This document shows, in pieces, positions 2,983-19,171 of a stretch of DNA of 42,293 nt. Each line of letters begins with the position of its first letter. The first letter of the stretch is position 1. A program made the position numbers and the translations under genes. The notes below the pieces were generated by a model. That model worked only from the letters and a program-made list of their open reading frames with translations. It had not been told where the DNA came from and did no database searches. Source of the DNA: Nitrosomonas sp. (GTDB lineage Bacteria; Pseudomonadota; Gammaproteobacteria; Burkholderiales; Nitrosomonadaceae); assembly GCA_020446045.1 (NCBI GenBank), contig JAGRFM010000106.1:1-42293 (forward strand), read 5' to 3'.

Positions 2983-3123
2983 AAACATACTCCAGTCATT
3001 TGAGTTTTATAGCGCCATACCTATGATCCACTTCCCTGAAGCTGAATTGTTTGGTCCATCGGCAATCTGCCAATTCAGAACCTATTTGACTAATTATTTA
3101 ACTTTAAGTATATTCCGCCACGT
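2983..3123. other. Intergenic region before repeat copy A, with an inverted repeat
   Basis: This stretch holds no gene. It contains an 8-bp inverted repeat, CTGAATTG at 3042-3049 and CAATTCAG at 3071-3078, with a smaller GGCA/TGCC hairpin nested inside (about 3061-3071). There is no T tract after it, so it is not a standard intrinsic terminator, although it may form a structure at the 3' end of the pagL transcript. Confidence 0.35.
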
Positions 3124-3405: not shown

Positions 3406-4749
3406 ATGGAGAAAATCATACCTGAATCCTTGTTAACACCCGGTACGACAGCGACTCAATGTGATGTGCTCGTTGTAGGAGGCGGCCCCGCCGGTTCTAC
3501 CTGCGCTACACTTCTGGCCGAGAAAGGCTTTCAGGTCATCATGATAGAGAAGGAGCAGCATCCGAGATTCCATATCGGCGAATCACTCTTGCCTGCCAAC
3601 ATGCCCCTTCTGGAACAATTGGGCGTTGCCGAAGCAATAAAAAATATTGGCCTTTTGAAACTGGGCATAGAATTCAACTCACCCAAGCATGATCATGTCT
3701 CACTGATAGAATTTTCCGATGGCTGGAACAAGGATTTCTCATGGGCATATCAGGTCAGACGCTCGGAATTTGATGAAATTCTTTTCCGCAATGCGGCCAA
3801 GAAAGGCGTACACACCATTGAAAATTGTCGTGTCCGGGATATTCAGTTCGACGATAACGGTGATTCACCCGTTATTATCCGTGCCGTGACAGAAACAGGT
3901 CAGACATGCTTTTTCGAGGCAAAATTTCTGGTCGATGCCTCAGGGCGTGATACTTTTCTGGCCAACAAGTATAAAACCAAACAAAAAGACAGAAAACATA
4001 GCAGTTCTGCCATTTTTGGTCATTTCCACGATGCAACCCGATTACAGGGAGAAAAAGAAGGATATATTTCCATATTCTGGTTCGAACATGGCTGGTTCTG
4101 GTTTATACCCCTGGCTGACGGCACAACAAGTGTTGGCGCTGTCTGCTGGCCGTATTATTTGAATTCCCGGAAAAAACCACTGGAAGAATTCTTGTGGGAT
4201 ACTATTCGTCTAAGCCCGCAACTGGCGGATCGTATGAAGCATGCAAAGCTTGTATCCGAAGCCTATGCGACAGGCAACTATTCATACGCAAGCTCTGTAT
4301 CGCATGGTAAACAGTTTATTATGGTCGGTGATGCCTATGCATTTGTGGACCCGGTATTTTCATCGGGTGTTATGCTGGCCATGAATAGCGCGTTTAAAGG
4401 TGCAGACGTCATAGAAGCCGTATTGAATCAATCTCACGATGCGCCGGCTAAATTCAAAGAATTCAATCACGTCATTCAACATGGCCCCAAAGAGTTTTCA
4501 TGGTTCATTCATCGCGTTACCAACCCTTTTATCCAGAATTTGTTTATGTATCCCAGAAAATTTTTGGGTACAAAGGCCAGTGTTCTCAGCGTGCTGTCTG
4601 GTGATATTTTTAACAATCCTAAAATCTGGCCATCAGTTTATATCTTCAAAGCAGTCTATTATCTATCCTCGCTCTTCAGTTTCAAACGTGCCTGGGAAGC
4701 CAAAAAGAGACGCGCTTATAATATTCGCGATGTAGATAACACCGTGTAA
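3406..4749 (+). CDS. Flavin-dependent halogenase-like FAD oxidoreductase (aryl polyene cluster)
   Basis: This 447-residue protein has an N-terminal FAD-binding motif, VVGGGPAGS, at about residues 23-31. Three halogenase features are visible: WFWFIP (residues 230-235, fitting WxWxIP); F313-P316-S319-G321 (fitting the FxxPxxSxG motif typical of halogenases acting on carrier-bound substrates); and Lys-85 in KLGIEF, which seems to align with the essential lysine of the PrnA/RebH group. A GDAYAFVDP segment gives the second FAD contact. In a hydroxybenzoate-primed aryl polyene cluster, the expected role is chlorination or bromination of the aryl head group, as in xanthomonadins. A non-halogenating FAD reductase is the alternative. 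AAGGA at about 3391 serves as ribosome binding site. It is the first gene of the plus-strand arm, directly after repeat copy A. Confidence 0.75.
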   Translation: MEKIIPESLLTPGTTATQCDVLVVGGGPAGSTCATLLAEKGFQVIMIEKEQHPRFHIGESLLPANMPLLEQLGVAEAIKNIGLLKLGIEFNSPKHDHVSLIEFSDGWNKDFSWAYQVRRSEFDEILFRNAAKKGVHTIENCRVRDIQFDDNGDSPVIIRAVTETGQTCFFEAKFLVDASGRDTFLANKYKTKQKDRKHSSSAIFGHFHDATRLQGEKEGYISIFWFEHGWFWFIPLADGTTSVGAVCWPYYLNSRKKPLEEFLWDTIRLSPQLADRMKHAKLVSEAYATGNYSYASSVSHGKQFIMVGDAYAFVDPVFSSGVMLAMNSAFKGADVIEAVLNQSHDAPAKFKEFNHVIQHGPKEFSWFIHRVTNPFIQNLFMYPRKFLGTKASVLSVLSGDIFNNPKIWPSVYIFKAVYYLSSLFSFKRAWEAKKRRAYNIRDVDNTV

Positions 4750-4877
4750 TAAAACAGTAACACCGGCAAGCGTTTGTACCAGCCAGCATTAACGATTTAC
4801 TTATTGATACATTATTAGTACTCTATTCGTATGATATTTAACTTCGCTCGCCAATCAATGTAAGGTTTTAACATGTC

Positions 4878-5912
4878 ATGGAGTTGCTGATTACCGCACA
4901 CTCATTACCACAACCCAACCCGGAACAACACATATTAGGCGGCATTTGTCTTACCCAAGAAGTTGTTAATAACGAAAAAGGAACGCTGTTGCAGCTTCCT
5001 TTACCATTATTGGAACAGAAATCATCTTTGCGAGAACTTTTTTTAATTGATGCAACTCCGGAGCAAATTAGATTTTCGATCCCCAATGGGGCAGTTATTT
5101 ATAGTAAGACGCGTGAATTTGTTTTCGGACATATTGAAGTTGAACAACATTCAGGCATAAAACAACTAGAGGAAACCAGTCAACAAGCCTATCGAACAAT
5201 GCTGCAACTGTGCCAGGATATGCAAACCTTCAACCTGTTGCGTATATGGAATTACATTCCCCATATCAATGCACCGGAGGGTATGACTGAACGTTACCGT
5301 TTATTTAATATCGGCAGAAGAAAAGCCTTTAATGATTATCCACAAGTGATTCATGATCACTACCCTGCAGCTTGTGCCCTCGGTTCTTTTGACAACATCC
5401 TGAGAATTGTTTTTTTGGCGTCAACTCATAAACCACACTATATTGAAAATCCACGCCAGATCAGTTCCTGTTTTTATCCGGAGCAATATGGATCCGTACC
5501 TCCCCTTTTCTCTCGAGCAACGCTTTTTTCTCAAAACCACTGCGTAACGCTTTTTATCAGTGGCACTGCGAGCATTGTCGGCCACAAATCAAACCATATT
5601 GGAGATATCCAAGCACAAACCCGTGAAACGTTACACAATTTGAATACCGTTTTGACCCAGGCCAATATCATCATGACGCAGGAACAAATGGAATATTCCT
5701 ATACAAAACCCTGGATCTTGAATGAATTGAATTGCCGCGTGTATATACGTCATCCTGAACACTTGCAGATAGTTCGCAGTATATTGCAACAAGCCGGTAT
5801 CAAACAGGCAGCCTATGTAAAAGCTGACATTTGCAGAGCCGAACTGCTACTGGAAATTGAAGCCACAGCGAGTCATTTCAATCATCAATTTGGCAATAAG
5901 AAAACAGCCTAA
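4878..5912 (+). CDS. Chorismatase of the FkbO/Hyg5/XanB2 family (hydroxybenzoate synthase)
   Basis: The 344-residue protein removes pyruvate from chorismate. Family signatures are RIWNYIPHIN (122-131), ERYRLFNIGRRKAF (about 138-151), GSFDN (169-173), SGTASIVGHKSNH (228-240) and QTRETLHNL (247-255). A Cys-319 is followed seven residues later by Glu-326, near the C terminus; this spacing recalls the active-site Cys/Glu pair of the 3-hydroxybenzoate-forming Hyg5 type, although subtype cannot be settled by eye. In Xanthomonas, XanB2 supplies 3-hydroxybenzoate for xanthomonadin and 4-hydroxybenzoate for ubiquinone. Here it should supply the aryl starter for the ligase at 16882-18309. It lies 128 bp after the halogenase-like gene and 1 bp before the next ATG. 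Confidence 0.88.
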   Translation: MELLITAHSLPQPNPEQHILGGICLTQEVVNNEKGTLLQLPLPLLEQKSSLRELFLIDATPEQIRFSIPNGAVIYSKTREFVFGHIEVEQHSGIKQLEETSQQAYRTMLQLCQDMQTFNLLRIWNYIPHINAPEGMTERYRLFNIGRRKAFNDYPQVIHDHYPAACALGSFDNILRIVFLASTHKPHYIENPRQISSCFYPEQYGSVPPLFSRATLFSQNHCVTLFISGTASIVGHKSNHIGDIQAQTRETLHNLNTVLTQANIIMTQEQMEYSYTKPWILNELNCRVYIRHPEHLQIVRSILQQAGIKQAAYVKADICRAELLLEIEATASHFNHQFGNKKTA

Positions 5913-5913
5913 A

Positions 5914-6672
5914 ATGACTAAACGCATACAACGTTTTTTTCATATTCTGGCTTTTTATCTGGCGCTAACATGGCTTGCCCTGATGCTGCTCATCGGAAAT
6001 TTTTTTGTGTTTTTTCTTTATTATCTGCTTCCACTCGATGCGGGTAAGAAACTGGGACGAAAAATAAACCGTTATGTTTTTCAATTATTCCTCAATGGCT
6101 GTTGTCATCTGGGCTTAATTCAACTGGATATACAGGCACTCGACAAGCTTAATAATGAAAAAGGTATTATTATCGCACCCAACCATCCAAGCATGCTGGA
6201 TGCGTTGCTTATCCTGTCGCGTATTAATAATACAAGCTGCTTGATGAAAGCCAGCCTCTGGAACAATATATTACTGGGTTCCGGTGCAAAACTGGCGGGT
6301 TATGTACGCAATGACTCAATCAAAAAAATGGTGCGCGGATCAGTCAGTGAACTGCATAGCGGCAGCAACTTGCTGGTCTTTCCGGAAGGGACACGAACGG
6401 TGCAGCGTCCGGTAAACCGTTTAAAAGCCGGTGTGGGCCTGATCAGTACCAAAGCACAGGCTCCTATTCAAACGGTGTTGTTACTTACCGATTCACCGTA
6501 CCTGTCGAAACATTGGCCTATCTGGAAAGTTCCCGCATTTCCCATATCGTTCAAAGCAGTCGTTGGCCAACGTTTTGAACCAACCTGCCGTTCAGCCGAC
6601 ATGATTACCCTACTACAAAACTATTATGACAACACCCTCAACAAGCCACGTACTTCTTATACCCAGTTATAA
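5914..6672 (+). CDS. PlsC-type lysophospholipid/glycerol acyltransferase
   Basis: I chose ATG 5914, 1 bp after the chorismatase stop, over the longer frame from 5857, which would overlap that gene. The 252-residue product has two hydrophobic stretches at about residues 8-40 for membrane attachment. It carries the PlsC/LPLAT signatures: NHPSMLD (H91, D96, the HX4D catalytic pair) and FPEGTR at 156-161. In aryl polyene clusters such enzymes esterify the polyene to a glycerol or lipid headgroup; that role here is inferred from context. The last 47 bp overlap the next gene, so translation is probably coupled. Confidence 0.85.
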   Translation: MTKRIQRFFHILAFYLALTWLALMLLIGNFFVFFLYYLLPLDAGKKLGRKINRYVFQLFLNGCCHLGLIQLDIQALDKLNNEKGIIIAPNHPSMLDALLILSRINNTSCLMKASLWNNILLGSGAKLAGYVRNDSIKKMVRGSVSELHSGSNLLVFPEGTRTVQRPVNRLKAGVGLISTKAQAPIQTVLLLTDSPYLSKHWPIWKVPAFPISFKAVVGQRFEPTCRSADMITLLQNYYDNTLNKPRTSYTQL

Positions 6673-7390
6673 TCCCGGAAATTTGATCATCAGTACCGTT
6701 CAGGAAGCCCTGGCATATTGGCAACCCGTTTGGGTGGTATCAGACGGCAGCACTGACGGCAGCACAAAAATCCTGCAAAAAATGAGTGAAACAAATCCGC
6801 ACTTGAAGGTGTTTGTTTTGCCTTTCAATCAAGGCAAGGGCGCTGCTGTCATGGAGGGACTTCGCCAGGCAAAGAAAGAAGGATTTACACATGCGCTGAC
6901 GATGGATGCCGACGGCCAACATCCCGCCACGCTCATACCGCATTTCATGCAAATCTCGACACAAAATCCTGCTGCCATGATTTTAGGCAAACCCGTTTTT
7001 GATGACAGCGCACCTCAGATACGCGTGCAGGGACGTAAAATCTCGAATTTCCTGGCTAATCTTGATACGCTTTGGATGGGTATCGGCGATTGCCTTTACG
7101 GTTTTCGCGTGTACCCTGTCGTTCCACTTTTAAACATCATGCAAAAACACCGATTTATGCGGCGATTTGATTTTGATATTGAAGCGGTAGTCCGTTTGTG
7201 CTGGGGGAATATACGCCCAATCAATGTTGATGCCCCCGTAAAGTATCTGAATGCTCAGGAAGGCGGCGTATCACATTTTAACTACTGGCGTGACAACACA
7301 CTACTGACCGGGATGCATATCCGGCTGATTGCCGAATGTATTTTACGGTTACCATTACTATTGTGGCGCAAATACAGGCAGCTAAAATAA
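6626..7390 (+). CDS. Glycosyltransferase family 2
   Basis: The 254-residue GT-A-fold enzyme has the expected N-terminal IPSYNPG segment, a nucleotide-binding DGSTD (40-44) and a DADGQHP metal-binding motif (DxD, residues 94-96). A GDCLYGFRVYP segment and an RRFDFDIE segment follow, as in dolichyl-phosphate-glucose-synthase-like GT2 enzymes. A hydrophobic C-terminal stretch may touch the membrane. GT2 enzymes are regular members of aryl polyene clusters and probably attach a sugar or sugar-alcohol group. The gene overlaps the acyltransferase by 47 bp and is followed 2 bp later by a methyltransferase. Confidence 0.85.
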   Translation: MTTPSTSHVLLIPSYNPGNLIISTVQEALAYWQPVWVVSDGSTDGSTKILQKMSETNPHLKVFVLPFNQGKGAAVMEGLRQAKKEGFTHALTMDADGQHPATLIPHFMQISTQNPAAMILGKPVFDDSAPQIRVQGRKISNFLANLDTLWMGIGDCLYGFRVYPVVPLLNIMQKHRFMRRFDFDIEAVVRLCWGNIRPINVDAPVKYLNAQEGGVSHFNYWRDNTLLTGMHIRLIAECILRLPLLLWRKYRQLK

Positions 7391-7392
7391 AC

Positions 7393-8151
7393 ATGTCAAA
7401 TTCAGGCCAATCAAATCGTTCCATAAAAACACCCCATCAGCCGATTACCGACTATTACGCCACCGAAGCAGAACGTGCGGGCTTTGTTCGTGAGTTGTTT
7501 GACGCGACCAGCGCTGACTACGACCGGATAGAATCCCTGCTCGCATTGGGTACAGGTCAGTGGTACCGCAGGCAGGCTTTAAAACGTGCCGGATTAAAAC
7601 CCGGAATGCATGTATTGGACGTCGGTTTCGGCACCGGCCTTGTCGCAACAGAAGCGATTGAGATCATAGGCTCTCCCAAATTACTGACGGGCCTTGATCC
7701 CAGTCTGGGCATGATGCAGGCCAGTCCCTTGTTCAAACAAACCGTCTTAATTGAAGGCAAAGCAGAACAAATCCCCTTTTCCGACAATAGTTTTGATTTT
7801 TTGAGCATGGGATATGCGCTACGTCATGTCAGCGATCTGGAGCAGGTCTTTGGTGAATTCTTAAGAGTACTCAAACCGGACGGTAAATTATGCATGCTGG
7901 AAATCACCAAACCCGAAACACCCGTTGGTTCAACGCTACTGAAAACTTATATGCGGACCGTTATCCCGCTGCTGGCAAAAGCATTTGCAAGCCAACGACA
8001 AACCGCTGAACTTTGGAAATATTACTGGGATAGTATAGAAGCCTGCGTCCCGCCGGAAAATATCATACAAGTTCTGGAATACTCGGGTTTCACACAGATC
8101 AGGAGACATCGTGAACTGCGCATATTCTCAGAGTATCAGGCAAGCAAGTAA
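7393..8151 (+). CDS. UbiE-like SAM-dependent methyltransferase
   Basis: I chose ATG 7393, 2 bp after the glycosyltransferase stop; the frame is open from 7336 but that would overlap. The 252-residue product carries motif I, VLDVGFGTG (74-82), and a post-I acidic residue in LTGLDPS. It then has QIPFSDNSFD and a GYALRHVSD segment typical of the UbiE/COQ5 group. Position and length suggest methylation of the pigment, for example the phenolic or polyene part, rather than quinone synthesis; this is inference. It is the last gene of the plus-strand arm and ends 23 bp before the convergent ketoreductase gene. Confidence 0.8.
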   Translation: MSNSGQSNRSIKTPHQPITDYYATEAERAGFVRELFDATSADYDRIESLLALGTGQWYRRQALKRAGLKPGMHVLDVGFGTGLVATEAIEIIGSPKLLTGLDPSLGMMQASPLFKQTVLIEGKAEQIPFSDNSFDFLSMGYALRHVSDLEQVFGEFLRVLKPDGKLCMLEITKPETPVGSTLLKTYMRTVIPLLAKAFASQRQTAELWKYYWDSIEACVPPENIIQVLEYSGFTQIRRHRELRIFSEYQASK

Positions 8152-8174
8152 AACTACGCCTTGAACGCATAAAA

Positions 8175-8903
8175 TCAGATTATGCCGCCATTCACAGAAA
8201 TCACTTGCCCGGTTATATAGCTGGCTTTCCTGCTGCACAAATAGTCTACCAGACTGGCAACTTCTTCCGGTTTACCGGCGCGTTTCATGGGAACGAGGTT
8301 ATTGATTGCCTTCTCATCGAAAACATTGTCTATCATGGGTGATGTAATAATCCCCGGCGCCACAACATTAACCGTTATGTTTCGACTGGCTAGTTCCAAA
8401 GACAATGATTTGCTGGCGCCATGCAACGCCGCTTTGGCAGCGGCGTAATTAACCTGCCCCCGATTGCCCATTATGGCGGCTATGGATGAAATACTGACAA
8501 TACGACCAAAACGGCTGCGTATCATCGGCATAATTAATGGCTGCGTTACATTAAAAAAACCATTGAGTGAAACATTAATCACATTCTGCCATTGATCTTG
8601 CCGCATGGCCGGAAAAATCACATCATCATTGATACCCGCATTGTTGACCAGTAACTGTATCGGTGTCTGTTCAGTCAATTCCTCCAGCACGTGACGCGCT
8701 TGATCGGGATTGTTGACATCAAACTGTATGGCTCCAGCTGATAATCCCGATTGCTGCAACTGATGAACTAACACCTGTGCAGCTTTAATATTCTCATTCG
8801 CATGAATATAAACATGATACCCGCTGTGTGCTAAAGCCTGACTGATTGCGGTACCAATAGCGCCACTGCCTCCGGTTACAAGGGCATAAGTCTTATTTTC
8901 CAT
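8175..8903 (-). CDS. 3-oxoacyl-ACP reductase (FabG-type SDR)
   Basis: The 242-residue short-chain dehydrogenase reduces beta-keto intermediates during polyene chain extension, using NADPH. Visible motifs are TGGSGAIG (10-17) for the cofactor, NNAG (87-90), Asn-114, and the catalytic Ser-139/140, Tyr-153 and Lys-157. It ends in GQVISVNGG, as FabG proteins do. Its ATG shares one base with the stop of the chain-length factor (TAATG), so translation is coupled. It is the final gene of the minus-strand operon. In aryl polyene systems reduction is followed by a dehydratase; none is visible here. Confidence 0.9.
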   Translation of the reverse strand: MENKTYALVTGGSGAIGTAISQALAHSGYHVYIHANENIKAAQVLVHQLQQSGLSAGAIQFDVNNPDQARHVLEELTEQTPIQLLVNNAGINDDVIFPAMRQDQWQNVINVSLNGFFNVTQPLIMPMIRSRFGRIVSISSIAAIMGNRGQVNYAAAKAALHGASKSLSLELASRNITVNVVAPGIITSPMIDNVFDEKAINNLVPMKRAGKPEEVASLVDYLCSRKASYITGQVISVNGGII

Positions 8904-9748
8904 TAATCAATCCTGACTTCCAACGATAAAGGCTCGAGGTATTCCAGATAAACCATACTGGAAAAATCATGTCCACGGGTCTCTATTTTATCTGCGAGCA
9001 CTTGCAATAATGGGAGACTGCGCGCACTGGGATTGGAGGAACGCAAAGCCTCTAATTCAGGAGTATCCATCCTGCTCATTGGCTGCGATGTGCAGTTCAG
9101 CGTCAATTTTGCCTGGGTAGTATTGTTTGCGGATAAACTCAATATCATTGCCACAGCAAAATCACTGTCCATCGGACGTATGCCACTCAACGGATAAGGA
9201 TACATCACATCGCTGGAGATCAGCAGAATGGATTTTCCTGATGACTTGACCTGACAACAGGCCTCCAACAAACCGGCTGAAAAACTCGCATCATAAGCAC
9301 ACAAACTGGTTGAAGGCAACGTGCACTGATTCGCAATACTCCAGTAACCCGCAGGTGCATTATGTACCGAATTATGAAAGCGCGTCGGAGAGATAAACCG
9401 CTCACTGCTTTCCGGATGCGCAAGTGTTTGAAAAATCGCGTCGCAATTGTCGCCATCTCCTGAAGAAGAAGTAAACACTGTCGCCAGATCTCTGGCATCC
9501 ATACCGGCATCCTGTATTGCCGCTTTTCCGACAGTCAGTGCTAGCCGTACCATTTTCCCTACCCGCCTGCGTTCCGCTGCTGGCAGCCAGGTTACCGGCG
9601 GAATGTCAAATGCTGATTTACAAAAATTCTGCTTTCCGGATAATATCGATAGCGCATCATTCCAGTTAGCCAGACCTGGGCCGAGAATGGCAATGCTTTG
9701 TACGTAACACTGAAGCGTAGCCTCTGACCGGTCAACACGCGTCTTCAT
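8903..9748 (-). CDS. Beta-ketoacyl synthase-like chain-length factor (inactive KS partner)
   Basis: I chose ATG 9748, which overlaps the upstream ketosynthase stop as ATGA, over the longer frame from 9781. The 281-residue product matches the ketosynthase-like family PF13723: GSGLANW-like start, then RFHNSVHNAPAGYWSI at 123-138 and PSTSLCAYDASFSAGLLEA at about 145-163. Where an active ketosynthase has a TACSSS nucleophile loop, this protein has an AYDASF segment, so it should not condense by itself. In aryl polyene synthases such a protein pairs with the active ketosynthase and controls chain length. It is about two thirds of the length of a full KS, which is normal for this family. Confidence 0.82.
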   Translation of the reverse strand: MKTRVDRSEATLQCYVQSIAILGPGLANWNDALSILSGKQNFCKSAFDIPPVTWLPAAERRRVGKMVRLALTVGKAAIQDAGMDARDLATVFTSSSGDGDNCDAIFQTLAHPESSERFISPTRFHNSVHNAPAGYWSIANQCTLPSTSLCAYDASFSAGLLEACCQVKSSGKSILLISSDVMYPYPLSGIRPMDSDFAVAMILSLSANNTTQAKLTLNCTSQPMSRMDTPELEALRSSNPSARSLPLLQVLADKIETRGHDFSSMVYLEYLEPLSLEVRID

Positions 9749-10959
9749 ACCGGGTCTTTCAAACCTACCACAATGCTGCAATTTGACCCGCCAAAACCAA
9801 ACGAATTACTGAGTATATTTCGCATGGGCCTGGCAGTATTTTGTTTTAGATAATGAACCGGAGAAAGGGAATCATCTAACACCTGGGTACCTGGGCTGCC
9901 CCAGGCCATTTGCTGTTGCAATGCTATAGCAGCAATTGCCACATTCAATCCACCTGCCGCCCCCAGACAGTGCCCTGTTGCGCCTTTCGTTGAACTTGCC
10001 GGTATTTTATCGTCAAAAACGGCCGATACCGCTTTACTTTCAATCGCATCGTTATTCTTGGTGGCCGTACCATGCAAATGGATATAATCTATTTCACAAG
10101 CAGGCAGGCGTGCCTGTCGTAAAGCAGAATGCATGGCTTTTTGCGCTCCCGTCCCTTCCGGATGGGGACTGGACATATGATAAGCATCACTGCTCTCGCC
10201 CACACCCTTGATCAGAAGACTTCCCGGCGGTGTCCGATCATCATCGCACGTTAATAGTGCAAAAGCGGCTGCTTCACCGATTGATATACCATCCCGATTG
10301 ATGTCGTACGGCTTGCAAGGATTCTGCGAAAGCAATTGTAATGAATGAAAACCGTACAATGTAGTCAAACATAAACTGTCAACGCCGCCGACTATCGCTG
10401 CATCAATTGCGTCCAACTGAAGCATACGCTGCGCCATGGCAAATACTTTGGCGCTTGATGAACAGGCTGTGGAAACTACCGCAGCAGGCCCGGTCAGTCC
10501 CAATACCGCACGCACAAAATGAGCAACCGAATAGGTATTTTGCGACCGTTGATAATCTACCCAGGGAGGTAATGCACCGGTATCCGGATTAAGTTCACGA
10601 TAGCCTTTTTCGGTTTGTAACATACCGGAAGTGCTGGTGCCCAGAAACACGCCGATTCTGGTTTTGCCAAAATTACTTTTTGCCTTTTCCACCGCATCAA
10701 TGAACCCATCCTGTTGTAGTCCCAAGAAAGCCAGCGTGTTGTTGCGGCAATCAACTCCCCGGAATTCGGCTGGCAGAAAATCTTCCTTGCTAGGTATTTC
10801 CGTAATTCCGATATACGTTTCCAAATCGACTGATTCGAATTGACAAGGTAACAGGCCACTGTTTTGCGCCAAAAGACTATTGCGTAAACCTGACAATCCC
10901 AAACCCAGGCAGGAAGTTGCTGTAAATGCAGACATTGATAGAAAAGCTTGGCCAGTCAT
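9745..10959 (-). CDS. Beta-ketoacyl-ACP synthase (FabF-type, active ketosynthase)
   Basis: This is the condensing enzyme of the polyene synthase. The full triad is present: the nucleophile Cys in VVSTACSSS (Cys-166 from this start), His-296 in HLHGTATKNND and His-330 in STKGATGHCLGAAG. An IGEAAAFALL and a FGFGGSN segment complete the fold. The frame is open from a TTG at 10971, four codons earlier; I prefer ATG 10959, which gives MTGQAFLSMSAFTATSCLG, close to family N termini. Neither start has a convincing ribosome binding site. It overlaps the chain-length factor by ATGA, which suggests that a KS/CLF dimer is made at equal levels. Confidence 0.9.
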   Translation of the reverse strand: MTGQAFLSMSAFTATSCLGLGLSGLRNSLLAQNSGLLPCQFESVDLETYIGITEIPSKEDFLPAEFRGVDCRNNTLAFLGLQQDGFIDAVEKAKSNFGKTRIGVFLGTSTSGMLQTEKGYRELNPDTGALPPWVDYQRSQNTYSVAHFVRAVLGLTGPAAVVSTACSSSAKVFAMAQRMLQLDAIDAAIVGGVDSLCLTTLYGFHSLQLLSQNPCKPYDINRDGISIGEAAAFALLTCDDDRTPPGSLLIKGVGESSDAYHMSSPHPEGTGAQKAMHSALRQARLPACEIDYIHLHGTATKNNDAIESKAVSAVFDDKIPASSTKGATGHCLGAAGGLNVAIAAIALQQQMAWGSPGTQVLDDSLSPVHYLKQNTARPMRNILSNSFGFGGSNCSIVVGLKDPV

Positions 10960-10993
10960 ACGTAATTTCAAATTAAGCGAATCTCTTCAATAG

Positions 10994-11704: not shown

Positions 11705-11736
11705 TTTTACTTGATCTTCCGCAAAAAAAGGAAATA

Positions 11737-12534
11737 CTACAAATCATCTGGCAACGCCTTTGCACTGAGATTGATGCCCTGTAATTTCTGTAATAATGCG
11801 GGCAATACTTCAACAATAACAGCATTGCCTTGACGGGTTAAGGCCGGGTTCCCATCGTGTAAAAGCAGTATATCGCCCACTTGCAGATCACTGCAAAGGC
11901 GTTCCAGCACTTTTCCCGCATCGTTTTGTTGCGTATCAAAACCACGCCGCGTCCAGCTGACCAGGTGTAAATTCATTTTTTGCAGTACAAAATCGAGAAA
12001 AACATTCCGTAACCCTGCTGGAGCACGAAAATAATGTGGCTGGATTCCGGTTACATTCTGTATAGAAATCTGGGCATTGGATATATCCCGGCAAATCTTT
12101 TGCATACCCCAAAGCGAAAAACGATAACTATGCACCATACTATGATTTTCAAGCTTGTGGCCACTATCCACGATCAGTTTTGCGAGGCCGGGATACCGGC
12201 TCACCTTCTCGCCAATACAAAAAAAAGTGGCTTTGGCATTATAGCGATCAAGGATTTGTAATACCTGCGGCGTAACATCGGGATTAGGGCCGTCATCAAT
12301 GGTGATAAACACTGCGTTGCCCGCTTTGGCGCCGGGAATTTTCACGATATTGGTTCCCAGCCATTGACTGCGCGGCCAAAGCCCTTGCGCCACCAGCACA
12401 ACCTGGCTGACAAGCATCACAATCAATCCATAAAACCAGAATCCCGGTATAAAGAACAGACATGCCGCCAATAGATGAAACGCCATGTTGACGCGTAAAA
12501 ACCAGTTAATGTGATAAACAGTCGAGTTATCCAT
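11737..12534 (-). CDS. Polysaccharide deacetylase-family protein (NodB fold), membrane anchored
   Basis: The first ATG is at 12534; a TTG at 12537 only adds one codon. The 265-residue protein has two hydrophobic stretches at about residues 18-50 and then a NodB domain. The metal site looks complete: ITIDDGPNP with Asp-80/Asp-81, and HSMVH with His-131 and His-135. A YFRAPAGLRN motif and a late LLHDGNPA with the second catalytic His are also present. NodB enzymes remove N- or O-acetyl groups from sugars. Presence in the pigment operon suggests action on a sugar or acyl group carried by the polyene. The start is 6 bp after the MMPL stop. Confidence 0.8.
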   Translation of the reverse strand: MDNSTVYHINWFLRVNMAFHLLAACLFFIPGFWFYGLIVMLVSQVVLVAQGLWPRSQWLGTNIVKIPGAKAGNAVFITIDDGPNPDVTPQVLQILDRYNAKATFFCIGEKVSRYPGLAKLIVDSGHKLENHSMVHSYRFSLWGMQKICRDISNAQISIQNVTGIQPHYFRAPAGLRNVFLDFVLQKMNLHLVSWTRRGFDTQQNDAGKVLERLCSDLQVGDILLLHDGNPALTRQGNAVIVEVLPALLQKLQGINLSAKALPDDL

Positions 12535-12540
12535 CAAGTC

Positions 12541-14949
12541 TTAGCGATGAAAAACAGCAGTGTTATTTTCAGTGCGCCGCGACATTATGGCTGAAAACAC
12601 AAATGCCAGCATAACGCCTGATCCAACCGTAATTCCAATAGTCTGCAAAATCGGAATTTGCGAAAAAATCAGAATACCGTATCCGGTTACAGTAGTCGTT
12701 GCTGCCAGCATAAGAGAAGCCAGTGTCGTATCGCTTTGAGAAGAACTGAAAAACAAAGCATAATTTGAACCAACGGCAAAAACCAGCAATAAACCAATGA
12801 CATTGAGCAAATTCAACTGCGCCCCCAGCAGGTGCAATATTGCAGTTACAAAAAGTATAGCGCATACCAGCGGCAGAATCACATGCATGGTTTTTTGCAA
12901 AGAACGCAAAGCAATCAACAATAAAACAACAATCACAATAAAACCGGCGGCTGAATACTTCAGTATCTTATTCAAATAGGTTTTATAAATGGTATTGAAA
13001 TCATCTTGCAGGTCCAATAATACCGACTGTTCATCCAACAGATCAGACAGTTCATGTTGTAGAAGCACTTGGTCTATGCTGCCTGCCTTGCCATTATCAA
13101 GTGGAGCCTGTAACTGTATCAACACATGGTAAATTGTATCATCACCGGCTTTTACTGCGTACAGCATCATACCCAACGCAATCGCCAGGGAACTTTCATC
13201 GAGCATTTCAGATTGTAACAGAGGCAAGGTTTTGCTTTTAGCCGCATCTTCTACAAAACCATGCAGACTTGTCACTGATACCGGCAACGTTTGCTTTGCT
13301 TCCTGAAGCGTTTGGTCAAGTTGCTCCCGGTCAGGAAGCACTCGTTGCCGTTTTAACTGCAGAGAATGGCTGGGCAAAACGATACATGGCGCCTGGTAAG
13401 CCTGCAGTAAACCCTGGGCAACCAAGTCATCCAGCCGTGGCAGGAATTGTTCACAACGCTGTAAAACTTGTTCTTGCGTTTGACCTTGCAACAGTAACAT
13501 ATGTCGTACATCCGCAGCCCCCATATCAACACGCAGTTCGCCATCCAAATCAAGTAAAGCGGTCGGTATGGGGCTCAAATCATTTAACTCATAACTCCAC
13601 AAATAAGCCTGCCTGCCCATTAACATCAACAAGGCGGCCAGTGCAACAAACCAAACGAAATAACGTAAACGGCGCGTTTTTTTTATGATCTGTCTTAGCC
13701 CTGATCCTACAGGATTAAGATTGGTAATAGACAGCCGGTCCGGCATGAGAACGGGCAAAACCCAGCGCGTACAGATAACTGAAACCAGAAGCCCGACTAT
13801 TGAAAAAGTGGCCAGTTGCATTAATCCGGAAAATCCTGAAAATAACAGTGTTGAAAAACCGCAAATGGAAGTTAGCACTCCCAGACTGATCGTACGCCAG
13901 AAAATATTAAAATCATCTTTATTATCGTCAAGCTGCGAACGCTGAAGAAAGAAATAAATAGCATAATCAATCGATTCGCCAATCAACGTAATACCAAATC
14001 CAATGGTCATGGCATGTACGCTGCCAAACCCAAGGCTTACCGCTGTAATTCCGGCAAGCGCTCCGGTAAAAACCGGCAATAACCCGACTAACAATAATTT
14101 AAAATTGCGCAGCACAACCAGCAAAATAGTTATGATCAGTATTAACGCCACTCCCGCCAACCGCGATATTTCTTCTTTGATGATATTTTGCGTTGCTACG
14201 GAGAAACTGGCCGGCCCACTAATAACAATTTCCACATTTTCTGTTTTTTGCACATTTTCCGGTGCTTCTTTGATAAAAGACTCTACTACTTCAGCGAAGC
14301 TTGTTTGCATATACTGTAAAGCAGCTTCCTGTGCTTTGATATCCGTACCGGCGGTTGCCAGTTGCACTAACAGTAGCGCACGATTACCGGGATCATTGAA
14401 CCATTGTCCATCTATTGTTTGTGGACCTTCAGCCGGGATAAGCCTGTCTATCAAGGCCATGACTTCCCCTGTCGGATCACGCATAAAAAGGGATTTACTC
14501 ATCAATCCTGAGGCCGACGACAGTTCCTGCAAATTGCTATAGATGGATTTTTCCAGGTTTTCGGCAGTAAAAAGCGCAGCTGTTGTGTTTGGAGATAACA
14601 GGTAACGATAAGTGTAAATCAATTCCTGCTCAGCGGCGTCGATTAAATTCTGGCCGTTTTGTACATGTGCAAAGGCGGTGCTGCCACGCAATTTATCTGC
14701 AAAGGATTTACCAATCCAGGAAAGTGTCCCGGTATCAGCCCCTTCGATACCGATCAGAAGTATGCGGTTTGCAGCGCCATTTTGTAATTGCCCAATGACC
14801 ATCAGTTCTTCCTGGTCAGGTTCTGATGGTAAAAAAATCGATAAATCCGTACGGTAATCCGTTTTAAACGCCATCACCCAGCCGGATAACAAAACAAATG
14901 AAAGCCACAACACTAGTGGCACACATTTTTCATTCTGGATTTTATACAT
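12541..14949 (-). CDS. MMPL/RND-family exporter
   Basis: The 802-residue protein has one N-terminal helix, a large periplasmic loop, about five helices at residues 265-420, a second helix near 435, another periplasmic loop, and a last helix bundle at about 655-795. This is the duplicated RND layout of MMPL lipid exporters. In aryl polyene clusters the MMPL protein with the LolA-like carrier moves the finished lipid to the outer membrane. Here the gene is separated from lolA by 301 bp of repeat-containing DNA. No ribosome binding site is evident before ATG 14949, so expression across the insertion is a question. Confidence 0.85.
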   Translation of the reverse strand: MYKIQNEKCVPLVLWLSFVLLSGWVMAFKTDYRTDLSIFLPSEPDQEELMVIGQLQNGAANRILLIGIEGADTGTLSWIGKSFADKLRGSTAFAHVQNGQNLIDAAEQELIYTYRYLLSPNTTAALFTAENLEKSIYSNLQELSSASGLMSKSLFMRDPTGEVMALIDRLIPAEGPQTIDGQWFNDPGNRALLLVQLATAGTDIKAQEAALQYMQTSFAEVVESFIKEAPENVQKTENVEIVISGPASFSVATQNIIKEEISRLAGVALILIITILLVVLRNFKLLLVGLLPVFTGALAGITAVSLGFGSVHAMTIGFGITLIGESIDYAIYFFLQRSQLDDNKDDFNIFWRTISLGVLTSICGFSTLLFSGFSGLMQLATFSIVGLLVSVICTRWVLPVLMPDRLSITNLNPVGSGLRQIIKKTRRLRYFVWFVALAALLMLMGRQAYLWSYELNDLSPIPTALLDLDGELRVDMGAADVRHMLLLQGQTQEQVLQRCEQFLPRLDDLVAQGLLQAYQAPCIVLPSHSLQLKRQRVLPDREQLDQTLQEAKQTLPVSVTSLHGFVEDAAKSKTLPLLQSEMLDESSLAIALGMMLYAVKAGDDTIYHVLIQLQAPLDNGKAGSIDQVLLQHELSDLLDEQSVLLDLQDDFNTIYKTYLNKILKYSAAGFIVIVVLLLIALRSLQKTMHVILPLVCAILFVTAILHLLGAQLNLLNVIGLLLVFAVGSNYALFFSSSQSDTTLASLMLAATTTVTGYGILIFSQIPILQTIGITVGSGVMLAFVFSAIMSRRTENNTAVFHR

Positions 14950-15010
14950 GCTGACTGGGAAGTAATCTAGACTGGCTAATCAAGTGCCGACTGCATAAGG
15001 GTTCTGACCG

Positions 15011-15253
15011 TTTAACCTAAAAACCTCAGTTGGATGGTGTTTAGAGTGCTTTGTTTTTTATTTTTGGCAAGGCGCAGTGAGGCATAATAACCAGTTATTA
15101 CAACGAATTGCAACACCGCAAAAAGCAAAAAACAATGGGCAATAAGCATCATAGTGTTGTTCACCATTCAGGTTAAGGCATTTTGAAGAAATTTATATTT
15201 CTGTTCATTAGGTTGTATTTCCTTGTAACGGTCAACCGAGGTTTTTAGGTTTA
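15011..15253 (-). mobile_element. MITE-like element, copy B, opposite orientation to copy A
   Basis: This is the reverse complement of copy A (3124-3366). The ends are TTAACCTAAAAACCTCAGTTG from 15012 and CAACCGAGGTTTTTAGGTT up to about 15251. Over the 86 bases before the internal ORF I count 17 differences from copy A; over the 156-base ORF I count 7. The element lies inside the pigment operon between the lolA-like gene and the MMPL gene. Its outer end overlaps the lolA stop codon. There is no transposase. Confidence 0.8.
15012..15167 (-). CDS. Small predicted one-helix membrane protein encoded in repeat copy B
   Basis: This is the second copy of the 51-codon ORF, starting at ATG 15167 and stopping at 15012-15014. 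The product starts MVNNTMMLIAHCFLLF and ends in a basic tail with RLAKNKK. It differs from the copy-A product at residues 4, 18 and 31, each conservatively. It reads towards the MMPL gene, whose ATG is 62 bp after the stop. I do not recognise it. Retention of the frame in both copies is suggestive but not proof of translation. Confidence 0.4.
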   Translation of the reverse strand: MVNNTMMLIAHCFLLFAVLQFVVITGYYASLRLAKNKKQSTLNTIQLRFLG

Positions 15254-15835
15254 ATCCTGGGAATCTTTTTTGCTAACCGACATAATGGAATAGTCACCAT
15301 CTTTCAGTCTCACTTCAACGGTTTTAACAATGCCCCGGCTTCCATTCAAATTGAGCGTTTCCAGCATTGTGTCTCTTTGAAAGGGACTCAATGCCAGCTT
15401 CCAGTCTGACAGAGTTCCCGTCAATTTAACGGCGTACAAGTAGGTCAACCGTTCCACATCACCCGCCAGTAAAGCCCGCATACCTTCGAAGTGCAGACTG
15501 ATTTCAGGATAATCATCGATATATAAACTGCGGGTTTTACCCTGACGTTCCATAGTTATCGTATTACCGGCCATTTTGAACATTTCCGGTTTGGGGTGCA
15601 ATGTATTTCTGATCATGGTTGACGGCGCTACAAATACCAGCTCTCCTGAAGATTCTATGGGCGCATTCACGCCTTTGATATATTTTTTTTCCTCAAATGT
15701 TGCATGAATTTCCTTATGCTCTGCCATGAACCGTACCAATTGTTTAAGACTGATGCGATCCGTTTCATCTTCGGCTAAAAGATTCATGGTAAACAACGAG
15801 AAAAACACAGCAGTCAGATAACGGTAAAGTTTCAT
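15251..15835 (-). CDS. LolA-like outer membrane lipoprotein/lipid carrier
   Basis: The 194-residue protein has a signal peptide of about 21 residues (hydrophobic stretch ending in MNLLA) and a LolA-type body beginning RISLKQLVRFMAEHKEI, with the FEEKKYIKG strand common in these proteins. In aryl polyene clusters a LolA homologue works with the MMPL exporter to carry the lipid across the periplasm. Its start overlaps the acyltransferase stop as ATGA. Its stop codon TAA (15253-15251) lies at the boundary of repeat copy B, so the last few residues may have been replaced when the element inserted. Confidence 0.8.
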   Translation of the reverse strand: MKLYRYLTAVFFSLFTMNLLAEDETDRISLKQLVRFMAEHKEIHATFEEKKYIKGVNAPIESSGELVFVAPSTMIRNTLHPKPEMFKMAGNTITMERQGKTRSLYIDDYPEISLHFEGMRALLAGDVERLTYLYAVKLTGTLSDWKLALSPFQRDTMLETLNLNGSRGIVKTVEVRLKDGDYSIMSVSKKDSQD

Positions 15836-16800
15836 TCTTTGTATGACGTGTTCCAGAAATCGTAGAAATTAAACCAGTTATATGGGTATTGTTGACAATA
15901 TTTTTCCAACAATTCAACATACCTTTTCTGGGCTTTCGCTACTGCCATCGTACGATCTTCCATCTTCGCTGAAAAATCATAAATCTCTTCAAACAGCAAT
16001 CGGTATCTATTTCCGCCGAGATACAAACCCAGCATCAATAGTACTGGTCTGCGCAAAAGTGCCGCCAGCCTGAAAGGGCTTTCAGAAAATGCAGCGTCAC
16101 GCTCAAGAAATTTTTGTCTTTTGAGGCTTTCCTGTTGTAATGTCCGGTCTGCAAGTATCCCAATCATCGTGCCACTTTCCAGCGCCTCATGAACCTGCAT
16201 CATCGTTTCTAATGTGCCCAGCGGGATGATTTCCTTTTGTAATTCCGGATTTATCGCGGCCAGTACCTGACCTATTTTTCTTGCGTTATTCTGATACATT
16301 AGCTGCGCAAAAGTATAGTCAGTATGTTTATGCCCCAATGCGCGCAACGCTTCAAAACTGCCCATATGCGCGCCAAACAGAAATATACCGCGATTTCGTT
16401 GCATGGTCTGGTGCAACAGATCCTCATTCTCTATGGTTGTAGAAAATAGGTTTACCCGTCCGTTCAAGAAATAAATGCGATCAAGTGATATGGAAGCAAA
16501 ACAAAAAAAATGTTTAAAAATATCTTTCCAGCTTACCGGTCTTCTCAGCACTTTTCCCAAGTACTGACGGGAAGCATGTTTTGCCTGGGTGGCCGCCAAC
16601 ATAAAATACAGACTGATGGGATACAGCAATAACCGGGCAAAATTCCGCCCTGCAAACAAACTCACCCATACCAGTAACCGCAACAAACCAAGACTGCCGC
16701 GTTCTTTACGCCGCATCCAGTCCGAATCTGCTTTCCTATCTGTCTTATCCATTTTAAAAATAAAATCTATCCAGGCATGATAAACATGTCCACGTTTCAT
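15832..16800 (-). CDS. LpxL/HtrB-type acyltransferase
   Basis: This 322-residue protein resembles the lauroyl/myristoyl acyltransferase family. It has a hydrophobic stretch at about residues 40-70, and the catalytic HX4E pair is seen as GAHMGSFE (His-145, Glu-150). An ILADR segment and a C-terminal YPYNWFNFYDFW also fit. The ATG at 16800 has a GGGGA too close for a good ribosome binding site, so a start at residue 17 (MDKTDRK) is possible. In aryl polyene clusters this enzyme is thought to join the polyene acyl group to the lipid anchor. It is the second acyltransferase in the cluster besides the PlsC-type one. Confidence 0.82.
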   Translation of the reverse strand: MKRGHVYHAWIDFIFKMDKTDRKADSDWMRRKERGSLGLLRLLVWVSLFAGRNFARLLLYPISLYFMLAATQAKHASRQYLGKVLRRPVSWKDIFKHFFCFASISLDRIYFLNGRVNLFSTTIENEDLLHQTMQRNRGIFLFGAHMGSFEALRALGHKHTDYTFAQLMYQNNARKIGQVLAAINPELQKEIIPLGTLETMMQVHEALESGTMIGILADRTLQQESLKRQKFLERDAAFSESPFRLAALLRRPVLLMLGLYLGGNRYRLLFEEIYDFSAKMEDRTMAVAKAQKRYVELLEKYCQQYPYNWFNFYDFWNTSYKE

Positions 16801-16881
16801 TCCCCATATCTGTAACGCCTAATAGCCTGAACCGGTTCAATGCTTGTAAATCACCCGTTTACCGGAAAATTGATATGCCCG

Positions 16882-18309
16882 CTAATGCTTTTCCTGTGCT
16901 GAACCACTCTGTTCTGTTTGCAAACTTCGTGCGAGATCAGTCAATAACCGATGCGGTAATTTACCCGTACTATTGCGCGGCAATGCATCAACCATAAAAA
17001 GTGGGCGAGGCATAAAAGCCGCATCAATACGCGCACGCAAGGATTTCAAAATTTCAGCTTTACTTATTCCGGATGCAACAACAAATGCCGCAAGGCGTGT
17101 CTCACCACTTTTTTCATGCGTTTTTTCTGTTGTTTCCGGAATAAAAAACACACCGTCCTGTACACCGTCAATGGCATTTAACTGATAATTCAAGTAACTT
17201 AATGAACTCCGCTTACCGGCAACATTAACCTGATCGGCCTTGCGGCCCAGTAATTTGAAATGACTTTTATCGATAATTTCTATCACATCGTTAAGTTCTG
17301 TTGGTGAAGCAATATAATCACCCTTTGCCACCGAGCTGTCGACACCATCATTTGAACCCATTGCACGCACAATCTCCACCTGACCATAAGTTTGCCATAC
17401 CGGATTATTTGTTGGTAAACGGGTGGCTAGCTGACCGGTTTCCGTGCAACCGTAAATTTCCTGTACGGGTGCATTAAATTTGGCCTCAATGCTTTCCGCA
17501 AGTCGCGCACTCAACGGTGCCGTAGCACTAATAATCAAATCTACTGGCGGCAAGTCAAGACCACTCTCCATCCAGGCTCTTAAATGAAAAGGAGTGCTGA
17601 CCAGTACACGCGGACGAGGCAAATCTTCCAGCTCGGAACAGATATCCTGTGCAAAAAAAGGGTGCGCTGCACTCAACGCCTGGCCACCAAGCAAAGCGAT
17701 CAATACACTGGATTCCAGTCCATACATGTGTTGCGGTGGAACGGTCGCCAGAACAGCAAAAGCACTGTTCCGGAAATTGACATCCTCCATTATTCTTTGT
17801 AATTGCGCCTGTGCATTACGCGTCATGCTACCCCAGGTTTTGGCATGCGGAACAGGTTCTCCAGTGGAGCCAGAAGTAAACACATAAGCCATTACATGTT
17901 CAGCAGGAATATCCGGAACCGAAAAATCTGATTCGGCCTTGTTCTGAGATTCAGCCGCCGATTGACCGGACAAAACCGGATATTCCAGTTGAAAACGCGG
18001 AAACTCGGCTATTTCAGGCATATCTTCATCATAAAGCACATATGAATCAGGATAAGTACGCTGCAGTTGAAATAACATACCCTGATTATAAGTAGGAGGT
18101 AGCAACATGGTTTGCCGATTGATGGCTGCAGCCCCCATACCCACTGCAAACAGATAACGGTTTTTGCAGAAATTAAGCAGAAATTGCTGGTTGGGCAATA
18201 GTCTTGCCAGCTGAATACTATCGCGCAGATAATCTTTTGCAGTTAGCGTCCGCTTTTGTGCATAAGCAATCATCGCATCCGGAGTATGGTGAGCAATCAG
18301 CTTAGGCAT
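16882..18309 (-). CDS. Acyl/aryl-acid:ACP ligase of the aryl polyene type
   Basis: The 475-residue ANL-superfamily enzyme has a phosphate loop TSGSTGEPVPHAK (145-157), a YGCTETGQ motif in the middle and a C-terminal LPRNSTGKLPHR with catalytic Lys-450. In aryl polyene and xanthomonadin systems this ligase activates the hydroxybenzoate starter and loads it on the ACP; the chorismatase at 4878-5912 would supply the acid. In some clusters the ligase is fused to or followed by a dehydratase; here it is a stand-alone ligase. It lies 81 bp upstream of the LpxL-type gene and 22 bp downstream of the membrane protein gene. Confidence 0.85.
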   Translation of the reverse strand: MPKLIAHHTPDAMIAYAQKRTLTAKDYLRDSIQLARLLPNQQFLLNFCKNRYLFAVGMGAAAINRQTMLLPPTYNQGMLFQLQRTYPDSYVLYDEDMPEIAEFPRFQLEYPVLSGQSAAESQNKAESDFSVPDIPAEHVMAYVFTSGSTGEPVPHAKTWGSMTRNAQAQLQRIMEDVNFRNSAFAVLATVPPQHMYGLESSVLIALLGGQALSAAHPFFAQDICSELEDLPRPRVLVSTPFHLRAWMESGLDLPPVDLIISATAPLSARLAESIEAKFNAPVQEIYGCTETGQLATRLPTNNPVWQTYGQVEIVRAMGSNDGVDSSVAKGDYIASPTELNDVIEIIDKSHFKLLGRKADQVNVAGKRSSLSYLNYQLNAIDGVQDGVFFIPETTEKTHEKSGETRLAAFVVASGISKAEILKSLRARIDAAFMPRPLFMVDALPRNSTGKLPHRLLTDLARSLQTEQSGSAQEKH

Positions 18310-18331
18310 ATGCTTGATTCGATGCGTGCAT

Positions 18332-18832
18332 TCAAGAAGATTTCTTATGTTCCCAGTATAAGCTCCATCCTTTCAGAATCGGCAATCTTTTGAGATTTGG
18401 CAAGGAATAGGAACGCACGATATATTCGGCTATAAACATTGCAGCAATAAGCGGAAAATATAATATATTACAAAATAATGACCACAGCATCGCAGATCCG
18501 AAAGCATATAATACCGTGCTGATTAAAGCCAGCGCCAGAAAAAACAGAGCCCATGCCCAGGTTGTATTCCTGCAATACCGCTCCACCTCGGCTGGCATCG
18601 ATAATCCATAGACAATTTGCGCAAAATGCGTAATCAATGGTGTTTTGCCGGGAAGCAGCGTGGATGCAAAGACTGCTGCAAGTAAAAGCTGCGTTACCAC
18701 ATATTGAATCAGATAAACTACAGCCAATTCCTGATATTGACCACCGTGTAAAAAATAATGCATTAACAGCGGATAACCTAAAATCGCTCCTGTTACAACT
18801 ACGGTTACTGCAACAACCCTAAAGGCACGCAT
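18332..18832 (-). CDS. Small multi-pass membrane protein (COG4648-like)
   Basis: The 166-residue protein has about four predicted membrane helices (roughly residues 6-28, 38-60, 92-112 and 115-140) and a basic C-terminal tail ending EHKKSS. It resembles the COG4648-type proteins found at this position in many aryl polyene operons, between the ACP and ligase genes. Its role is not known; a membrane platform for the synthase or an export part is possible. No catalytic motif is visible. Confidence 0.65.
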   Translation of the reverse strand: MRAFRVVAVTVVVTGAILGYPLLMHYFLHGGQYQELAVVYLIQYVVTQLLLAAVFASTLLPGKTPLITHFAQIVYGLSMPAEVERYCRNTTWAWALFFLALALISTVLYAFGSAMLWSLFCNILYFPLIAAMFIAEYIVRSYSLPNLKRLPILKGWSLYWEHKKSS

Positions 18833-18883
18833 CTAAAAATAGCCTCATTAAGATGAAGATTGGAAACGCAGGAATATCAAACT

Positions 18884-19171
18884 TTATTTGGTACGGTTTG
18901 CGGCAATATGAGCAGCCAAATGCCGCAATGAACTGAAAATGGTTTTGTTTTCCGGATCATCCGACTTCATCTGGAAACCGTATTGTTTGGAAATAGCCAG
19001 TGCCAACTCCAGGATATCAATCGAATCAAGTCCCAATCCATCGCCATACAATGGCATATCGAGGTCAATTTGATCAGACGCTACTTCTAAATTCAATGTT
19101 GTCACAATCAGGTTGGCAATTTCACTTTCAAAATTAGAGGCCAGGTGAATATTTTCAACAGAGCTATTCAT
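18884..19171 (-). CDS. Acyl carrier protein of the aryl polyene synthase
   Basis: The 95-residue protein has the 4'-phosphopantetheine attachment motif GLGLDSIDILELA, with Ser-50 as the modified residue. It has a normal ACP helix pattern around it and a typical N-terminal extension. It is the first gene of the minus-strand pigment operon and should carry the aryl starter and the growing polyene. Known aryl polyene clusters usually have two ACP genes side by side; only this one is seen, and the 669 bp upstream contain no second ACP. Confidence 0.9.
   Translation of the reverse strand: MNSSVENIHLASNFESEIANLIVTTLNLEVASDQIDLDMPLYGDGLGLDSIDILELALAISKQYGFQMKSDDPENKTIFSSLRHLAAHIAANRTK

Follow-up and report, generated by a model that had tools for sequence, protein, structure and literature searches.

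A xanthomonadin/arcuflavin-like aryl polyketide gene cluster of Nitrosomonas that lacks both dedicated dehydratase genes

A 3-hydroxyacyl-ACP dehydratase is required in aryl polyene (APE) pathways. In Acinetobacter baumannii, its subunits ApeI and ApeP are reported to form a heterodimer that has one active site (PMC8041823). Clusters of the xanthomonadin type have equivalents of both subunits: in the account of the arcuflavin cluster, ArcI is encoded between the chain length factor (CLF) and the ketoreductase (KR), and ArcS between an acyltransferase and a ligase (PMC3949708). The DNA analyzed here, referred to as the window, comprises 42,293 nucleotides from Nitrosomonas sp. (assembly GCA_020446045.1, contig JAGRFM010000106.1) and is the start, from base 1, of contig C25 of the host genome G000, a 3.57-Mb draft in 242 contigs that is 97.5% complete. 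It contains one block of 16 genes at positions 3406–19171, five on the plus strand facing eleven on the minus strand, which resembles the xanthomonadin and arcuflavin clusters in gene content but has neither ArcI nor ArcS. There is roughly an even chance that this is a xanthomonadin/arcuflavin-like aryl polyketide cluster that lost both subunits, otherwise stayed under selection and has the housekeeping dehydratase FabZ as a stand-in.

Loss of the dehydratase genes

The core expected in a xanthomonadin/arcuflavin-type cluster, an aryl ligase, an acyl carrier protein (ACP), a ketosynthase (KS) with a short CLF partner and a KR, is found in full in the window, all of it on the minus strand. The FabG-type KR (8175–8903, ArcH/ApeQ-like) and the aryl AMP-ligase (16882–18309, ArcT-like) are assigned by domain matches. 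The KS (9745–10971, ArcK-like) falls into PRK09185 and contains an ACSSS motif, the ACP (18884–19171) belongs to the PRK09184 family and contains a GLDSID motif, and the short KS-like CLF (8903–9781, ArcJ/ORF16-like), which matches Ketoacyl-synt_2, takes its predicted role from the Lysobacter protein. The motifs of KS, KR, ACP and ligase are all in place.

Reference sequences for the two missing subunits were taken by position from locus L004, where ArcI is ApeP-like (22.6 bits, under the Pfam cut-off of 27) and ArcS is FabA-like (32.4 bits, above the cut-off of 23). Profiles for ArcI (24 rows) and ArcS (11 rows), also used in whole-genome searches, gave no match in the window or in the cluster stretches of its relatives. 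In the window, KR and CLF overlap by one base (8903), which leaves no space for ArcI between them. The loci surveyed are the best 80 of 341 halogenase relatives; KR and CLF matches are present in 44 of them, and ArcI in 41 of these 44. The exceptions are two Nitrosomonas loci, with 4 and 8 bp between the KR and CLF matches, and L017, in which the locus end truncates CLF, at a distance of 8.9 kb from KR. L017 and three further Burkholderiaceae loci (L016, L027 and L073) show no ArcI in a covered stretch that ends within KS or CLF, and are therefore uninformative on ArcI. ArcS is found in all 13 ligase-bearing loci, none of them from Nitrosomonas. The position of ArcS in Azoarcus corresponds to the junction between the ligase and the LpxL-type acyltransferase, which measures 81 bp in the window (16801–16881, minus strand) and 125–145 bp in three relatives. 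No dehydratase remnant was seen in these junctions: they contain no ArcS-like frame by eye and give no profile match.

Within the family, CLF homologues of the cluster type occur in 4 of 125 genomes, namely the host genome and its relatives G031, G086 and G075, the last of which is rated 100% complete and consists of two contigs. Three other Nitrosomonas genomes, G055, G056 and G059, with only weak CLF matches in this set, served as controls for the dehydratase profiles. At E ≤ 1, the ArcI profile has no match in any of the four carrier genomes and finds copies in two of the three controls. The ArcS profile finds only the FabZ gene in the four carriers, plus a place with E = 0.11 in G000, and a copy in a 573–574-aa open frame in all three controls; in G055 and G059 this is the frame of the ligase, in which an ApeI-like part lies. 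The control genomes seem to hold an ordinary APE-type cluster (L088–L096, L110–L112; G056 judged by matches only), and no chorismatase match was found in the cluster stretches of G055 and G059.

Xanthomonadin/arcuflavin clusters are characterized by two dehydratases of the ArcI and ArcS type, and because both are absent the Nitrosomonas cluster is a dehydratase-less variant and not a full member. That two genes at separate places were lost together fits a heterodimeric enzyme that has only one active site, such as ApeI/ApeP. The first-pass annotation had read the block as an aryl polyene cluster; the gene set agrees with this, but the polyene itself is in doubt, the dedicated dehydratase subunits being missing from the cluster and from the four genomes.

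A relocated dehydratase was not found in G031, G075 and G086 in the ArcI and ArcS searches, nor in those for PF07977, to which FabZ is the sole match at E ≤ 0.1, and for MaoC, with nothing over the cut-off. In the host genome, contig C11 also encodes a FabA-like protein of 203 aa, and a 495-aa frame contains a MaoC-like domain; both are unlikely to represent a relocated dehydratase. The FabA-like protein is encoded in a cluster (L113, 3354–7602) together with a 4HBT thioesterase, a ketosynthase, a 181-aa protein and an AMP ligase, and this cluster is a possible second source of dehydratase in the host.

FabZ is favored as the stand-in because it is the one dehydratase present in all four carriers and no new chemistry is needed. 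The genes lpxD, lpxA and lpxB usually surround fabZ. In the host genome (L114 2167–6185, contig C130) there is no room for them, and fabZ lies between genes read by eye as skp and rnhB, after bamA-like and skp-like genes.

Several observations weigh against FabZ in this role. It is not the sole candidate in the host genome, given the FabA-like protein on C11 and the MaoC-like domain. Nor does any feature of FabZ mark the carriers: in an alignment of 11 FabZ proteins, a position with Phe or Leu in seven is occupied by Ile in the four carriers, but this Ile was rejected as a marker, since by a degenerate DNA pattern it occurs in 19 of the 125 family genomes, 15 of them non-carriers. Laboratory E. 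coli has both FabA and FabZ. In the report on the CFT073 cluster cloned in a laboratory E. coli, deletion of “most” core genes abolished the pigment (PMC8253772; apeI and apeP are not singled out in that statement), so the heterodimer may not be replaceable by housekeeping enzymes. Finally, a condensation-like protein encoded to the left of the cluster in the relatives was not found in the host assembly, where the left part of the cluster is cut off the contig.

Conservation and history of the cluster

The closest halogenase relatives are those of Nitrosomonas sp. JL21 (L028, 81%) and of a Nitrosomonas metagenome-assembled genome (MAG; L002, 79%). Together with the comparison of family genomes they place the host in the same genus as JL21, in agreement with the Nitrosomonas-type host first proposed for this DNA. 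In the JL21 locus, ten genes, beginning with that of the halogenase and ending with that of the deacetylase, have the same order and relative strand and are followed by the gene of an MMPL exporter cut by the locus end. All 16 block genes are present as full-length frames in identical order in G031, G086 and G075. The gene order kept in these four excludes a chance grouping. When G031, G086 and G075 are compared with one another in pairs, the omega values of the 16 genes, calculated by the Nei-Gojobori method, all fall within 0.06–0.25; they are quoted for these genomes only, comparisons with the window being near synonymous saturation.

Two core genes are lost, the assembly is a draft of 242 contigs, and two copies of an element resembling a miniature inverted-repeat transposable element (MITE) are inserted in the cluster, as might be expected of a decaying relic or an assembly error. 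One copy of ~245 bp (3123–3366, minus strand) matches at 91% the other (15005–15256, plus strand), which has 22-bp inverted ends; at least 45 matches are present in the host genome, at least 40 of these 162 bp or longer, with 40 of 112 candidates scored. The second copy accounts for the gap of 301 bp between the genes of the LolA-like carrier and the MMPL exporter, as opposed to 41–59 bp in the three relatives, and the stop codon of LolA lies within the outer end of the element. A relic or an error is nevertheless highly unlikely, as the gene order is common to four genomes (one of them assembled into two contigs), the open reading frames are intact and of full length, the omega values are in the range given above and the motifs are kept.

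In the halogenase tree, the four Nitrosomonas proteins form one clade (100/100) with five Oxalobacteraceae as the sister group (98/87). All five of these hold both ArcI and ArcS, and since the sisters keep them, the loss of the two genes probably took place on the Nitrosomonas stem, if it did not precede transfer. The tree of KS and KR (the window and the 38 rows that have the two genes; G059 and G055 omitted) also contains a single Nitrosomonas clade, which has a long stem (0.90) and unresolved neighbours, and its sister group does not agree with that in the halogenase tree. L002 and L028 duplicate G086 and G031, respectively, and were therefore omitted from alignments and trees. L058, titled as a Bordetella parapertussis MAG, carries cluster genes, and its halogenase groups with unclassified Burkholderiales near Sulfuriferula; the species label looks doubtful.

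The distance to other clusters, taken relative to the Oxalobacteraceae counterparts, is 1.35–1.56 for LolA, KR, MMPL, chorismatase and ligase and 0.97–1.21 for the other ten genes (KS 1.21, CLF 1.16, halogenase 1.06, ACP 0.97). For these ratios L043, L032, G059, G055 and rows under 60% length were omitted, the UbiE-like methyltransferase was not included, and the sets differ from gene to gene. A faster change confined to the chain-building enzymes is rejected, as the raised ratios include LolA, MMPL and the chorismatase, and those of KS and CLF are lower.

It can also be hypothesized that no dehydration takes place. KS-CLF and KR would then produce an aryl polyol, a poly-β-hydroxylated aryl chain that may carry methyl groups and a halogen on the ring, and this chain would be exported after attachment to a lipid; the product, not the helper enzyme, would have changed. 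This would be in line with the absence of both dehydratase subunits from all four carriers and the purifying selection on KR, KS, CLF, ligase and ACP in three of them, with the indication from the cloned E. coli cluster that FabA and FabZ are no simple stand-in, and with the larger distances of KR, chorismatase, ligase, MMPL and LolA. However, the extra divergence is not special to the chain builders, as the values for KS, CLF and ACP indicate, and we know of no type II polyketide synthase of the aryl polyene family that makes such a polyhydroxylated chain. The aryl polyol is considered unlikely, and less likely than dehydration by FabZ; if true, it would be a new product class.

The halogenase-family protein, the chorismatase and the left module

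The ArcA-like protein encoded at 3406–4749 (plus strand) falls into the flavin-dependent halogenase family and may have halogenating activity. Its K85, W230-F-W-F-I-P235 and F313-x-D-P-x-F-S-S-G321 represent a lysine and two motifs (WxWxIP and FxDPxFSSG) that are invariant in all 83 aligned halogenase rows, which comprise 78 of the 80 loci (two duplicates left out), the window, three Nitrosomonas relatives and one paralogue from G059. The FAD-binding GGGPAG is invariant in a 25-row alignment. Lys85 aligns with the lysine at position 76 of CndH, which we take to be catalytic.

The best matches among solved sequences are 5buk (Mpy16 by title), ChlB4, PltA and 3e1t (CndH by title), with E-values from 9.5e-55 to 2.6e-51, and the geranylgeranyl-type reductase 3oz2 is far behind (E = 2.6e-9). 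Among the halogenases with the nearest solved structures, PltA, ChlB4, Mpy16 and Bmp2 act on carrier-bound substrates. In the structure search, which used an AlphaFold model (pLDDT 85.7), ranks 1–40 are taken by halogenase, chlorinase and brominase entries, FasV (8zop), ctcP (7xgb) and 3nix. In the sequence search 8zop is titled “Halogenase” and 7xgb a tetracycline 7-halogenase; 3nix is titled flavoprotein/dehydrogenase. Reductases and monooxygenases start at rank 41. The family assignment made in the first-pass annotation is thus supported by the signature residues and the nearest solved structures, and in these similarity searches, which are not a tree, the protein is found next to halogenases, 3nix excepted, and not among non-halogenating reductases.

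The “probably halogenated” product of the same annotation does not follow from this. Two Xanthomonas clusters hold a halogenase gene and the Xanthomonas pigments are brominated to a varying degree, while the same report gives neither a halogenase gene nor a brominated pigment for Lysobacter (PMC3691225). Arcuflavin, however, is given as the non-brominated C41H52O4, although arcA is annotated as a halogenase (PMC3949708), and because this cluster yields a halogen-free pigment the step from gene to halogenated product is weak. An ordinary halogenated aryl polyene with chlorine or bromine on the ring, for which other enzymes would supply all of the dehydration, would agree with the invariant lysine and motifs and with nearest structures that are mostly halogenases. 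It is considered improbable in view of arcuflavin, arcA being a halogenase gene by annotation.

The ArcB-like chorismatase (4878–5912, plus strand) clearly belongs to the FkbO/Hyg5/XanB2 family by its domain matches and is predicted to form 3-hydroxybenzoate. It has Gly in FISGTAS and Cys in DICRAE, where FkbO (4bps) has Ala at both places. The closest solved entries, 5ag3 and 5a3k, were deposited as putative pteridine-dependent dioxygenase and are taken here to be Hyg5; both have FVSGTAS, and 5ag3 also has DVCRSD. These two positions presumably separate 3-hydroxybenzoate makers from FkbO. The reaction of a chorismatase is described as not accurately predictable from alignment alone (PMC3949708).

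To the left of the halogenase, three relatives encode an acyl ligase (AL0), an FAD-dependent oxidoreductase, a condensation-like protein of the HxxxD type, a second ACP, a 203-aa lipoprotein-like protein and a second halogenase-family protein with WSWRIP and FIDPVFSSG. This left module spans positions 1439–6639 of L028 and is also present in the stretches L104–L109. The window keeps only one end of it before the contig start: the 3' part of the oxidoreductase (1–813, plus strand, PF12831), the frame of which is open from base 1 and has a 424-aa full-length homologue in L028, and AL0 (822–2261, plus strand), the second AMP-dependent acyl ligase of the window. The AL0 homologues of the three relatives are 66–69% identical, and the module is lineage-specific: AL0 above 35% identity, or any match to the oxidoreductase, is found only in two Nitrosomonas loci of the 80. 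The condensation-like protein of L028 contains SHILLDAYG, and its Pfam match of 25.5 bits is under the cut-off of 30.6; matches to it occur in 2 of 399 genomes sampled from the order, G086 and one 29% partial. The contig break may be the cause of its absence from the host assembly. Between the module and the cluster lies the gene of a PagL-like lipid A deacylase family protein (2239–2982, plus strand, by Pfam), the true start of which is probably further in; proteins ~40% identical to it are found in L003 (Thiobacillus) and L015.

An unrecognized enzyme of the left module could perform the unsaturation or make a different acyl product. The position of the module next to the cluster in three relatives and the rarity of its condensation-like protein, oxidoreductase and AL0 speak for such a role. 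Its condensation-like protein, however, is the one not found in the host assembly, has a match under the Pfam cut-off and a structure model with pLDDT 33, and to our knowledge no family in the module is known as a β-hydroxyacyl dehydratase; this explanation is hardly probable. A further proposal, rather unlikely as well, is that a type II polyketide synthase that never dehydrates yields a β-hydroxylated, possibly ring-halogenated aryl chain, and that the added module of ligase, ACP, condensation-like protein and FAD oxidoreductase joins a second acyl group to it before export, which would result in an uncoloured envelope lipid of an undescribed class.

Proposed pathway and comparison with related clusters

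With FabZ as the preferred dehydratase, the cluster should work like the xanthomonadin/arcuflavin type up to the β-hydroxyacyl stage. The chorismatase would supply 3-hydroxybenzoate, the ligase would load it on ACP, and the halogenase-family enzyme may modify the ACP-bound ring. KS-CLF and KR would then extend the chain with malonyl units, and FabZ would dehydrate it. One or both of the methyltransferases, the UbiE/COQ5-like protein (7336–8151, plus strand) and the SAM-dependent ArcM-like protein (10994–11704, minus strand), would methylate the phenol. The PlsC-type acyltransferase (5857–6672, plus strand, ArcD-like), the LpxL-type acyltransferase (15832–16800, minus strand, ArcR-like, by Pfam), a family 2 glycosyltransferase (GT2; 6626–7390, plus strand, ArcE-like) and a polysaccharide deacetylase (11737–12537, minus strand, ArcN-like) would attach the acyl chain to an anchor, either a lipid or a sugar-lipid. 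Transport of the product to the outer membrane would be performed by the MMPL/RND exporter (12541–14949, minus strand, ArcP-like) and the LolA-like carrier (15251–15835, minus strand, ArcQ-like), which has a weak match to flexirubin LolA2; the other assignments given here without a source come from domain matches. A small membrane protein (18332–18832, minus strand), ArcU by position, has no Pfam match. The set for envelope placement of xanthomonadin/arcuflavin-type clusters (acyltransferases, GT2, LolA, MMPL) is therefore complete.

Every gene first listed at 3406–19171 is indeed an intact open reading frame, and gene families and the correspondence with the arc genes bear out the xanthomonadin/arcuflavin-type set; that inventory had overlooked the deacetylase, the loss of both dehydratases and the leftward continuation of the cluster in three relatives.

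No account of such a cluster in Nitrosomonas was found in the open-licence literature. In three papers from it, the main-text passages that mention Nitrosomonas along with an aryl polyene term do not name an aryl polyene cluster from this genus. The presence of a dehydratase-less cluster in four Nitrosomonas genomes raises the question whether FabZ builds a polyene or the pathway makes something else, and an ammonia oxidizer gains a candidate envelope pigment or lipid. A role of the pigment in oxidative or light stress during ammonia oxidation, as suggested in the first-pass annotation, would be hypothetical. The cluster also offers a test of whether the halogenase-like gene common to such clusters truly halogenates.

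The APE clusters of E. coli, Xenorhabdus and Acinetobacter, as well as those of Nitrosomonas G055, G059 and, by matches, G056, are similar to the present cluster in ACP, ligase, LolA-like and MMPL proteins and in the logic of KS and KR. Unlike it, they are fed by 4-hydroxybenzoate and have ApeI and ApeP, and the E. coli gene table contains no chorismatase.

The yellow pigment cluster of Lysobacter enzymogenes has a KS with a half-size CLF-like partner (ORF17/ORF16), a KR, an ACP and an acyltransferase, as does the Nitrosomonas cluster, but it is described with two FabA/FabZ-like dehydratases and no halogenase (PMC3691225), and the reverse is found here. The xanthomonadin cluster of Xanthomonas is, by its description, a type II aryl polyene pathway fed by 3-hydroxybenzoate and equipped with a halogenase gene, and its product is brominated (PMC3691225, PMC3949708). 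The dehydratases are lost in the Nitrosomonas cluster, and halogenation of its product is hypothetical.

The arcuflavin cluster arc of Azoarcus sp. BH72 (PMC3949708) shares with the window the halogenase-like gene, the XanB2-type chorismatase, ligase, ACP, KS, short CLF, KR, methyltransferase, deacetylase, two acyltransferases, GT2, LolA and exporter, and the genes A, B, D, E, H, J, K, M, N, P, Q, R, T, U and V correspond by annotated function and position. Unlike the Nitrosomonas cluster, arc is described with arcI and arcS and lies in two unlinked blocks. To the arc set, the Nitrosomonas lineage adds a second ligase and an FAD oxidoreductase, and the relatives also a second ACP, a condensation-like protein and a second halogenase-like protein.

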